In this document: piece after piece, positions 5,270 to 11,873 of the stretch
Position numbering within the stretch: the stretch's first letter is position 1
Layout: the number at the start of each line of letters is the position of its first letter
Source: an uncultured Mailhella sp.
Lineage (GTDB): Bacteria > Desulfobacterota > Desulfovibrionia > Desulfovibrionales > Desulfovibrionaceae
Reading direction: 5' to 3'
Assembly (NCBI GenBank): GCA_944324625.1
Contig: CALUWZ010000019.1
Location: 1-16,169, forward strand
Length of the DNA stretch: 16,169 bases
The notes under the pieces: generated by a model
The model's input: only the letters and a program-made list of their open reading frames with translations
The model's database searches: none
What the model was told of the DNA's origin: nothing
Translations under genes and position numbers: made by a program

Positions 5270-7072
5270 CTATTGCCCCTCGGCGGCTTTTTCACGGCAA
5301 TGACTCATCAGCACAGTGAAAACACCGTCAATATCAAGATCGGAAGTATCCACGATCACGGCATCTTTGTGGGGAACAAGGGGATCAACAGCCCTGTTTC
5401 TGTCCTGTTCGTCGCGGGCGATGATATTTGCCAAAATGCTGTCATATCCTTCATTTTGCCCTTTGGCGGAAAGTTCGTCAAAACGGCGTTTTGCCCGGAC
5501 TTCGGGACGGGCGTCAAGGAAAAATTTTACGGACGCATCGGGAAATACCGCCGTACCCATATCCCTGCCCTCTGCCACCAGAGAAATGTTTCTGCCTATC
5601 TCTTTCTGGAATTTTTGCAGGGCTCTGCGTGCTTCGGGCAGTTTTCCCATAAGCGAGGCCAGACGGCCGGCTTTTTCGGTACGGATTTCTTCGCCGATTT
5701 TTTCGCCGTTGCAGTAAAGAACATAGTCATCCCCTTCTTTTTTCAGGGCATAGGAATACTTGGCAAATTCTTCCTGCATTTTTTTGTCCGACATGTCGGC
5801 AATGCCCGCTCCCACGCGAAGTCCCAGACTGCGGTACATGGCTCCCGTATCCAGATAGGCAATGCCGAGTTCTTTGGCAAGCTTTTTGGCAAGCGTGCTT
5901 TTGCCGACGCCCGCAGGCCCGTCCACGGTCACGATAAAATTTCCCTTTCCGAAAAGCTCGCGCAGTGCAGAAAGAAATTCGTCATTTTCTTCCGCCGTTC
6001 CCACGGAAACACGCACCAAATGCCCAAGCCCGTAACTGGACAAGGCGCGGACAATAATGCCTTTTTCAAGCAGTTTTTGACAAAGCTCCTTGGCAGTCAG
6101 GCCCTTGGGCTCAAACATGATAAAATTGGACCATGAGGGATATACGGCAAAGCCGAGCCGTTCCAGTTCCAAAGACAGGCGTTTCCTCTCCTTCACGGTA
6201 TGGCTTACGGTCATCTGCTTAAACTCTTCGTCGGCCAAAGCGCAGATTCCTGCCTCCTGAGCAAGGATATTGACGGAAAAAGGCAGGCGTATGCGCCACA
6301 TGTAATCCGCCACGTTTTCAGGCAGGAAAATATAGCCGAGCCGCATGCCCGCAAGGCCGTAAACCTTGGAAAACGTGCGCATTACCGCAAGATTGGAAAG
6401 GTCTGCAAGTTCACCCAGCATGGAACAGTCTTCTTCGCTTCCCGCAAATTCAATATACGCCTCGTCCACAACCAAAAGACAGGATTTGGGCAGGCTGCGG
6501 GCAAAAGCAAGCAGTTCTCCTTTGTCGGCAAGGCGTCCGCTTGGATTGTCCGGGCTTGTCACAAAGCAAAGGGCGGTATTTTCATCCACAAGGCTGCGCA
6601 GGGCATTAAAATCAAAAGAAAAATCTTCCCTGAGGGGCGTGCTGCGCATTTCGCAGTTCTGCACTTTTGCCTGCGTGGAATATAAGCCGAAACAAGGATT
6701 AAACATGACGGCATTGTGCTTTCCGGGTATGGTCAGGGTTCGGAAAAGCAGGTCGATGATTTCATCGGAACCGTTGCCCGCAAAAATTTGTTTTTCCGTC
6801 AGGAACGGATATTTTTTATGGTAATATTCAAAAAGAGCACGAATTAAACGGGGATTTCCCGACTGCGGATAACGGAACGCATTAACGGCCTCCTGCCTGA
6901 TTTTGTCCGTGACAAGCTTGGAGCAGCCGAAAGGATTTTCGTTGCTTGCCATTTTAATGACGTGGGAAAGACCGTATTTTTCCTTGATTTCGTCAATGGA
7001 CAGGCCGGCCTCATAAGGCTTGAACGATTTAATGTGTTCGCAAACCGAAATATGATTTTTTTCTGCAGACAT
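5270..7072 (-). CDS. Histidinol-phosphate aminotransferase-cytidylate kinase fusion (HisC-Cmk)
   Basis: A single 600-residue reading frame joins two enzymes with almost no linker. Residues 1-374 are a class II PLP aminotransferase of the HisC type: MASNENPFG, SPDNPSG, VVDEAYIEF and TFSKVYGLAGMRLGY with the PLP lysine at K236. Residues 379-600 are cytidylate kinase: P-loop GPAGVGKS (385-392), YLDTGAMYRSL, AEGRDMGTAVFP (R503, D504) and the lid RDEQDRNR (553-560). HisC makes histidinol phosphate in histidine synthesis, and Cmk phosphorylates CMP and dCMP. Both halves keep their key residues and near-normal lengths. The junction reads ELFGKGNFIVTVDGPAG. A GTG codon at 5932 (residue 381), preceded by GGAAAGGGAA, could start a separate Cmk chain. 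I chose the ATG at 7072; an in-frame TTG at 7084 is less likely. Sequencing error removing a stop cannot be excluded from one sequence. Confidence 0.9.
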   Translation of the reverse strand: MSAEKNHISVCEHIKSFKPYEAGLSIDEIKEKYGLSHVIKMASNENPFGCSKLVTDKIRQEAVNAFRYPQSGNPRLIRALFEYYHKKYPFLTEKQIFAGNGSDEIIDLLFRTLTIPGKHNAVMFNPCFGLYSTQAKVQNCEMRSTPLREDFSFDFNALRSLVDENTALCFVTSPDNPSGRLADKGELLAFARSLPKSCLLVVDEAYIEFAGSEEDCSMLGELADLSNLAVMRTFSKVYGLAGMRLGYIFLPENVADYMWRIRLPFSVNILAQEAGICALADEEFKQMTVSHTVKERKRLSLELERLGFAVYPSWSNFIMFEPKGLTAKELCQKLLEKGIIVRALSSYGLGHLVRVSVGTAEENDEFLSALRELFGKGNFIVTVDGPAGVGKSTLAKKLAKELGIAYLDTGAMYRSLGLRVGAGIADMSDKKMQEEFAKYSYALKKEGDDYVLYCNGEKIGEEIRTEKAGRLASLMGKLPEARRALQKFQKEIGRNISLVAEGRDMGTAVFPDASVKFFLDARPEVRAKRRFDELSAKGQNEGYDSILANIIARDEQDRNRAVDPLVPHKDAVIVDTSDLDIDGVFTVLMSHCREKAAEGQ

Positions 7073-7082
7073 GAAAAACCCC

Positions 7083-7120
7083 AAAGAAACAAGAGAGCTT
7101 TGACCGAAGCCAAAGCCCTC
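7083..7120 (-). terminator. Terminator-like hairpin between usp and hisC-cmk
   Basis: On the minus strand a 10-bp stem (7111-7120 with 7093-7102, one G-U pair) closes an 8-base loop and is followed by TTGTTTCTTT (7083-7092). It ends the usp transcript about 20 bases past its stop codon. It lies only about ten bases upstream of the hisC-cmk start, so any transcript entering hisC-cmk from usp must read through it. It may therefore work as a partial terminator. Confidence 0.75.
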
Positions 7121-7141
7121 TGAAAAAAATTATCGGAAAAA

Positions 7142-10319: not shown

Positions 10320-11873
10320 ATGACCAGTCAAAAAGATACCATAGCGGCCATTGCCACGGGAGCGTCAGCAGGAGGCCTCGGCGTTATCCGCATTTCAGGG
10401 CCGAAGGCAAAAGAAATTCTCGGCACTGTCTTCCGATCCCGCAAAAGCGGTGAAAACTTTTCCTTCAAGCCCCGCTATATGCATTACGGCTCCTTTGTCT
10501 GCAAAAAGCACGGAGAAAGCCTGATTATGGACGAGGTGCTTGCCGTCTATTTTCCCGCCCCGCATTCCTACACCGGCGAAGACGTGGCGGAAATCCACGC
10601 CCACGGCAGCAGCATTTTGCTGCATGCCATGCTGGAATACCTGCTCAGCCTTGGAATACGGCAGGCCGAAGCTGGCGAATTTACCAAACGGGCATTTTTG
10701 AACGGCCGCATGGATTTGTCCCAAGCAGAAGCCGTGGCGGAAATCATTGCCGCACCGAGCATGGAAGGCCTGCGCCTTGCCGCCTCCAAGCTTCACGGCA
10801 GCCTCGGAAAACGCATTGAAGAACTGCGCACGCAGATCGAATACATACGCAGAAGACTGTGCCTTGCCATAGATTTTCCCGAAGAAGAAGGCGAATGCCT
10901 GCCCCATGACGAATTTCACAGCCTTGTCAGCACCCTGCAGGACAATATCATGGCGCTCATTAATGCCTATGACAGGGCAAAACCGTGGCAGGAAGGCGCT
11001 CTGGTTGTTTTGGCAGGCCAAGTCAATGCGGGAAAATCCAGTCTGATGAATGCTCTTTTGGGGCGGGAACGCGCCATAGTCACCGATCAGGCAGGCACTA
11101 CCCGCGACTATCTGGAAGAAACAAGCTTTCTGGCAGGCCTTCCCGTCCGCCTCACCGACACGGCAGGCCTTCGGGAAATGGCATGGATTATGGAGCATTA
11201 CCACAATACTTCCGCCTATTTTGACGAAGAACGCACCAAGGAAATCATTGCCTCCCTGCAGAACAATGCGCTGAAAGGGGAAAATACCCCCATCAACCCC
11301 ATTGAAGCGGAAGGCATCTGCCGTTCCCTTTCCCTCATGGAAAAAGCGGACATTGTTTTTCTGGTTTTTGACGGAAACGGCATTTTGGAAGAAACAGGCA
11401 AAGACCTTGAAAAAATATGCCGCCACATGCAGGCCGAACTTTCCCTTCTTCCCGAGCACAGCAAAACAATCTGCATTTGGAACAAGGCTGACCTTGCTCC
11501 CCTGACCCGAGAAGAAGCGGCGAAACTGGAAGAAATGCTGGGCCATGCCCTCATCTGCCTGTCCGTGCGGGAAAAGAAAGAAGGCGGTTATTTCCGCCAA
11601 AGCATAGACGACCTTGCAAAAAAAGCCTGTTCCATGCTTATTAAAAGCGACGGTCCGAAAAACGAAATCGCCCCCAACCGCCGTCAGGCCCTTCTGCTGC
11701 AGAAAGCCCACGACGAACTTGCCGTTCTGCACACGGAAATAGACATACTTCCGCCAGACATAACGGCCATACGGCTTGAAAGCGCCGCGGCGTTCCTTTC
11801 CGCCATTACGGGGCTCTGCAGCGTGGACGAAACATTCAACGCCATTTTTGAAGAATTCTGCATCGGCAAATAG
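10320..11873 (+). CDS. mnmE: tRNA uridine-5-carboxymethylaminomethyl(34) GTPase MnmE, with G-domain insertion
   Basis: MnmE with MnmG installs the cmnm5 group on wobble uridine 34 of certain tRNAs. The N-terminal formyl-tetrahydrofolate-binding domain (DTIAAIATG..GVIRISG, about 1-120) is followed by a helical domain split around the G domain. The C-terminus FCIGK carries the essential cysteine. G motifs are GQVNAGKS (233-240, with the potassium-binding Asn N236), AGTTRD (258-263), DTAG (280-283) and NKAD (388-391). The protein is 517 residues against about 455 in most bacteria. The excess is mostly an insertion of around 40 residues after DTAGLRE (about 287-327), beside switch II; the usual sequence resumes at IEAEGICRSL. 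The ATG at 10320 follows the thioesterase stop by one base. An upstream in-frame extension from 10221 overlaps that gene and is rejected. Confidence 0.95.
   Translation: MTSQKDTIAAIATGASAGGLGVIRISGPKAKEILGTVFRSRKSGENFSFKPRYMHYGSFVCKKHGESLIMDEVLAVYFPAPHSYTGEDVAEIHAHGSSILLHAMLEYLLSLGIRQAEAGEFTKRAFLNGRMDLSQAEAVAEIIAAPSMEGLRLAASKLHGSLGKRIEELRTQIEYIRRRLCLAIDFPEEEGECLPHDEFHSLVSTLQDNIMALINAYDRAKPWQEGALVVLAGQVNAGKSSLMNALLGRERAIVTDQAGTTRDYLEETSFLAGLPVRLTDTAGLREMAWIMEHYHNTSAYFDEERTKEIIASLQNNALKGENTPINPIEAEGICRSLSLMEKADIVFLVFDGNGILEETGKDLEKICRHMQAELSLLPEHSKTICIWNKADLAPLTREEAAKLEEMLGHALICLSVREKKEGGYFRQSIDDLAKKACSMLIKSDGPKNEIAPNRRQALLLQKAHDELAVLHTEIDILPPDITAIRLESAAAFLSAITGLCSVDETFNAIFEEFCIGK

Follow-up and report, generated by a model that had tools for sequence, protein, structure and literature searches.

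What does the long reading frame on the minus strand of this contig encode, and how did two enzymes of unrelated chemistry come to share it? The window, i.e. the whole stretch of 16,169 nucleotides analysed here, is an entire contig of a 237-contig draft assembly (G000, a genome 88.7% complete). One open frame without internal stop runs from an ATG at 7072 to a stop codon ending at 5270. We conclude that it very probably encodes a single polypeptide with two complete enzymes, HisC followed by Cmk, which would have arisen by the loss of a stop codon in an old hisC>cmk gene pair and been kept since the ancestor of the fused clade. The relevant features are the following.

5270..7072, minus strand: fused hisC-cmk gene, 600 aa, in a single frame; the same gene is found in genomes G001, G003, G004 and G005.
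5957..7039, minus strand: HisC domain, residues 12-372, matched by TIGR01141 and PF00155, with fold-search hits on 3get and further HisC structures.
5936..5950, minus strand: linker, residues 375-379, between the last HisC helix and the first Cmk strand, placed from the secondary structure of the model and the junction spacing.
5306..5941, minus strand: Cmk domain as matched by TIGR00017 (the PF02224 match spans 5300-5932); it aligns with solved CMP kinases.
5941..5950, minus strand: GGAAAGGGAA, a Shine-Dalgarno-like run overlapping the linker codons, present as claimed in an earlier note on this DNA; its pairing energy is ordinary and unconserved.
5930..5932, minus strand: in-frame GTG, codon 381 (Val), the proposed internal start, assessed by codon identity, pairing and comparison with unfused genes.

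Both halves exceed curated equivalog cut-offs over nearly the full length of the models. The HisC half scores 329.5 bits with TIGR01141 (cut-off 276.55; model positions 2-348 of 349) and the Cmk half, at residues 378-589, scores 194.9 bits with TIGR00017 (cut-off 135.55; model positions 2-214 of 217), while PF02224 covers residues 381-590 of the fused protein. The segment TFSKVYGLAG of the HisC half aligns with TFSKLYGLGG of 3get, and its K236, which we take to be the PLP lysine of a fold type I aminotransferase, is invariant across 12 aligned rows. Over its whole length the Cmk half can be aligned with CMP kinases of solved structure, among them 1cke and 4e22, including the motifs GPAGVGKST (P-loop), GRDMGT and RDEQDRNR. 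The AlphaFold model, built on a 77-row alignment, has a mean pLDDT of 92.8 and a pTM of 0.75; its final HisC helix stops at residue 374 and the first Cmk strand starts at 380. The best 50 matches of the fold search are HisC enzymes and their near aminotransferase kin, hence the assignment of Cmk rests on sequence. These results bear out the earlier claim of two complete enzymes in one frame; the turn that we find between them has about five residues. The same note had described the two as coming from unrelated pathways. This holds for the chemistry, but they are not a random pair, as hisC>cmk adjacency is common across the order. The whole fusion has a computed mass of 66.9 kDa, and a Cmk begun at the GTG would have 24.2 kDa.

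By these assignments, the first part would be a histidinol-phosphate/imidazole-acetol-phosphate aminotransferase and the second a (d)CMP kinase, both with presumably active sites. HisD and HisB domains are present in all six genomes of the genus; the HisC half could serve aromatic transamination, besides or in place of histidine synthesis. A terminator-like hairpin of 12-13 pairs (window 7092-7121, minus strand) lies upstream of the fused gene, about 20 nt from its ATG, and is also found with a variable loop in G001, G003 and G004 and not seen in G002; a usp terminator and a leader element are the suggested alternatives. Elsewhere in the window, an MnmE at 10320-11873 (plus strand) matches NCBIfam models in two stretches and scores 334.1 of 380 bits, below the PRK05291 cut-off, as if its GTPase region held extra sequence.

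We then asked how the two genes are arranged in relatives. Of the 59 genomes searched, the comparison took in the 57 with both genes (lack of a good HisC match excluded G023 and G027). Five of these are fused, all in the window's genus, and the other 52 are split. The earlier note had held that separate genes in all close relatives would count against a fusion; instead, five of the six genomes of the genus are fused, G002 being the split one. Two of the five fused genomes are from Taurinivorans muris or very near it, and we refer to the fused part of the genus as the Taurinivorans type. One of the five, G003, is a single contig of 2.17 Mb; it and G005 come from one species or from two very close ones, and over 4.8 kb it shares 99.6% identity with UBA8003, a genome that the available text of PMC10507020 assigns to Taurinivorans muris, a species cultured from the mouse gut as strain LT0009. 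Very probably, then, G003 is Taurinivorans muris. Across 288 genomes of the family (185 matching at the 1e-100 limit), the stop-free full-length matches listed come from the same five fused genomes, and nine further matches in the list extend over both genes in a single frame that holds stops. UBA8003 is the only fused locus among the 80 named GTDB loci listed, a set that perhaps leaves the window's nearest kin outside.

Searches of protein collections extended this picture. When proteins of 330-1050 aa were searched with the Cmk region, at least 46 HisC-Cmk clusters came out on top, including the window's own and some fragments; for two of them the exact protein is present on 111 and 114 contigs. 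The first protein search had scored 8000 candidates, of which the best 120 were taken. The third, with 263 candidates, recovered one of the 46 Taurinivorans-type clusters and therefore says nothing on the absence of HisC-Cmk elsewhere. Several candidates for further fusions were rejected. G045 and G053 have frames of 725-729 aa that resemble fusions but hold stops at the junction, with gaps of 276 and 372 nt; the loci of Desulfobulbaceae and Elusimicrobia have adjacent but split genes; and P0105 (581 aa) reads by eye as unrelated, GC-rich sequence in the middle of HisC, as after a frameshift. A candidate that stands as a lead is P0062, a fused fragment of 407 aa on a contig of 1654 bases, which falls in the Mailhella clade.

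The partners are long-standing neighbours of unrelated chemistry. In all 52 unfused genomes compared, hisC and cmk are neighbours on the same strand. The same is true in 101 split loci, a set that overlaps the 52 and reaches Desulfobulbaceae and Elusimicrobia. A hisHb>cmk pair was already described in Desulfovibrio vulgaris in 2005, and the available text of that paper reports that other members of the gene string are fused, including hisHb-tyrA in Rhodobacter (PMC1173090). The spacing is usually tight: measured between the stop of hisC and the first Cmk residue in the alignment, it spans -14 to 372 nt over the 52 split genomes, and the two genes share a frame in five of them. One such case is G002, where hisC and cmk lie in one frame, parted by a TAA directly before ATG ATG; hence the loss of one stop would join them. 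We infer that the fusion arose in this way, by loss of the stop codon in an old and tightly spaced hisC>cmk pair, and that the Taurinivorans type would have retained it from its common ancestor onwards. A quick tree of the concatenated sequences places the fused rows in a single, fully supported clade of 14, with the split G002 as sister; in the tree of Cmk only, a fused clade of 13 holds (100/97) and the position of G002 is without resolution.

Both halves are under purifying selection. Compared with G001, the window has a dN/dS of 0.154/1.26 in HisC and 0.112/1.24 in Cmk, and comparison with G003 gives similar values; these ratios are rough because dS exceeds 1 and is saturated in the comparison with G004. 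Apart from the fusion, none of the five fused genomes has a Cmk above the TIGR00017 cut-off or a HisC above the TIGR01141 cut-off, the absence of second copies being less firm in G000 and G005, which are incomplete (88.7% and 80%). A weak second match to the Pfam family Cytidylate_kin in G000 (L002) was considered as a second Cmk and turned out to be a shikimate kinase. Sub-cut-off HisC-like matches occur within open frames of about 850-915 aa (G003:C1:833826-834899, G000:C49:8059-9135 and others); such frames are found in many genomes of the family and are possibly another aminotransferase fusion.

Is the fusion itself of any use? The stop may have been lost by chance, leaving halves that work as before and a tether without function, and we give this neutral account an even chance. 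The genes were already tightly spaced (47 of the 52 unfused pairs lie within 52 nt), so that fusion is a small step, and in three of four pairs it is the linker that changes fastest. On the other hand, there is no re-split in the fused clade as sampled. Moreover, of 48 clusters, 44 have 22 residues between the RVSxG motif of HisC and the TxDGPAG motif of Cmk, and the other four have 24, i.e. the junction varies by 0 or 2 residues, against the wide range of distances in unfused pairs. This constancy decides neither way, because it is also expected if any change of frame would lose Cmk. Neutral and adaptive fusion are equally likely. Whichever holds, a bifunctional HisC-Cmk protein can be pictured in some detail. 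HisC enzymes are dimers, hence the HisC part would be expected to dimerise, with one tethered Cmk per chain. Substrate channelling would not be expected, because the two reactions share no substrate. The benefit, if any, would be production at a fixed 1:1 ratio.

The fused gene might also yield a free Cmk beside the fusion, if ribosomes initiated internally at GTG 5932 or on some other start-like codon near the junction. We consider this improbable. As the earlier note had seen, GGAAAGGGAA (5950-5941, minus strand) lies 8 bases ahead of the GTG (5932-5930), in frame with Cmk. Its predicted pairing with the 16S tail, at -5.3 kcal/mol, is near the median of 13 annotated starts (-5.6). Both the purine run and the GTG are retained in G003 and G005 (-5.6 kcal/mol). 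In G001 the GTG is retained, and in G004 an ATG stands at the place of the G002 ATG. However, the purine run is gone in G001 (-3.4 kcal/mol) and in G004 (0.2 to -2.7), and such energies are common: of the internal start-like codons in 13 genes of the window, 46 of 286 reach -5.3 kcal/mol, as do 14 of the 107 that are GTG. The codon itself varies: of 47 Taurinivorans-type clusters, 43 have Val at this position and four have Ile. A start codon and ribosome-binding site conserved together at the junction were thus not found among the fused relatives, nor was an excess of synonymous conservation at the 19 junction codons. The claim that the GTG aligns with the starts of free-standing Cmk proteins did not hold either. 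It lies 3 codons before the D of DGPAG, while the nearest ATG of the unfused genes is at least 5 codons before it and most often 9 (13 of the 40 genes with an ATG in the range examined; 12 of the 52 have none there). Eleven of the 52 unfused genes have the same GTG, each with another start-like codon further upstream. Finally, the GTG is within the first Cmk strand, and a start there would cut into it. The idea that selection maintains an internal start finds no support: the isoleucine codons and a pairing that is neither exceptional nor conserved speak against it. Most likely, GTG 5930..5932 is an ordinary valine codon of Cmk strand 1, and regulated production of a separate short Cmk is improbable.

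That the fusion is an error of assembly or base calling that deleted a stop codon, as one might suspect of a complete short contig in a fragmented draft, is extremely unlikely: for the Taurinivorans type it is ruled out by independent genomes and contigs, with the same junction in five genomes, including the single-contig G003, and in at least 46 clusters, although synonymous sites have diverged past a dS of 1. Such an error may still lie behind P0048 and P0062, each known from a single contig.

P0048 is a further HisC-Cmk protein, of 588 aa, outside the Taurinivorans-type clade. In the Cmk tree, it groups with six MoaC-bearing Cmk proteins (100/99). A single fusion event for all HisC-Cmk proteins was rejected, as their grouping in one clade has a p-AU of 0.009, a value that is optimistic because the choice of group followed an earlier quick tree, in which P0048 stood on a long branch. 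To judge from this protein alone, on its one contig, P0048 looks like an independent HisC-Cmk fusion.

Cmk has other partners in the family. A C-terminal MoaC is present in L008 (G002), L064 (G220), L081, L096 from Bilophila and L098 from Mailhella, and in proteins P0122, P0123 and P0196-P0205; below the HisC-Cmk clusters in the Cmk-region search, precomputed Pfam annotation gives MoaC in 54 of 74 rows among the matches listed. Other Desulfovibrionaceae have a C-terminal hydroxyethylthiazole kinase (PF02110; L104, L107 and L108) or a C-terminal pyridoxamine-oxidase-like domain (PF12900; L110 and L118). Many Cmk proteins of the Mailhella clade (L073, L075-L080, L082-L085) carry a tail of about 120 aa of no clear family. 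One of the five such tails scanned has a MoaC match, below cut-off, and four have none; our guess, from inspection by eye, is that these tails are eroded MoaC. The five fused genomes encode MoaC separately (e.g. G000:C114:3989-4396), with 46-48% identity to the G002 tail, whereas the MoaC of four other family members are 56-60% identical to it. These separate MoaC form a long, fully supported branch, as if they had been acquired elsewhere and had replaced the family's own.

Taken with P0048, a single contig in a group picked post hoc, this suggests that fusion and partner exchange have been repeated in the family. A bolder and rather doubtful reading is that the Cmk of Desulfovibrionaceae is a partner-swapping fusion hub. 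A C-terminal MoaC would have been present in the window's clade and lost at least twice (in the Taurinivorans type and in P0048) as an N-terminal HisC was gained, and the Taurinivorans type would now use an unrelated, separate MoaC. If true, the recurrence would mean that tethering Cmk is useful, e.g. with CMP/CTP status acting on the partner.

Fusions of a complete Cmk to an enzyme of another pathway, as in the window, are known: PanC-Cmk (NF010004), AroA-Cmk (NF008816), Cmk-Der (NF007071) and Cmk with an acyltransferase (PF01553). Proteins pairing Cmk with PF02569, PF01553 or GTPase domains were among our search matches. In PanC-Cmk and AroA-Cmk the kinase is C-terminal, as it is here. The PanC-Cmk, AroA-Cmk and Cmk-Der models do not contain HisC, the window's partner, and the window scores 187.5 of 524, 163.4 of 943 and 141.5 of 953 bits with them, respectively, with matches in the Cmk part only. 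Also comparable are the Cmk-MoaC proteins of Desulfovibrionaceae (Mailhella, Bilophila and G002), one of which was already labelled 'MoaC/cytidylate kinase' by JGI. They belong to the same Cmk lineage as the window and are also fused to another enzyme, but unlike in the window the partner is at the C-terminus and HisC is encoded separately. A protein with HisC, Cmk and MoaC together was not found among those compared. A precedent in gene order is the hisHb>cmk pair of the ancestral supraoperon, with the same genes in the same order as in the window; these genes are separate, and the available text mentions no hisHb-cmk fusion (PMC1173090). Our search of the open-licence literature for a report of a HisC-Cmk fusion found none, and as a fusion it is apparently undescribed there. 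HisC is thus an added partner in the known set of Cmk fusions. The step from pair to fusion is caught inside one genus, as the stop that parts the genes in G002 is missing from five of its relatives. Provided that both halves are functional, the level of one protein sets that of the only HisC and the only Cmk that score above cut-off in the genome. Alongside the fusions of Cmk to MoaC, hydroxyethylthiazole kinase and the pyridoxamine-oxidase-like domain, the case makes it testable why Cmk fuses often and with such diverse enzymes. HisC-Cmk joins a known class of Cmk fusions, and is made from a known gene pair.
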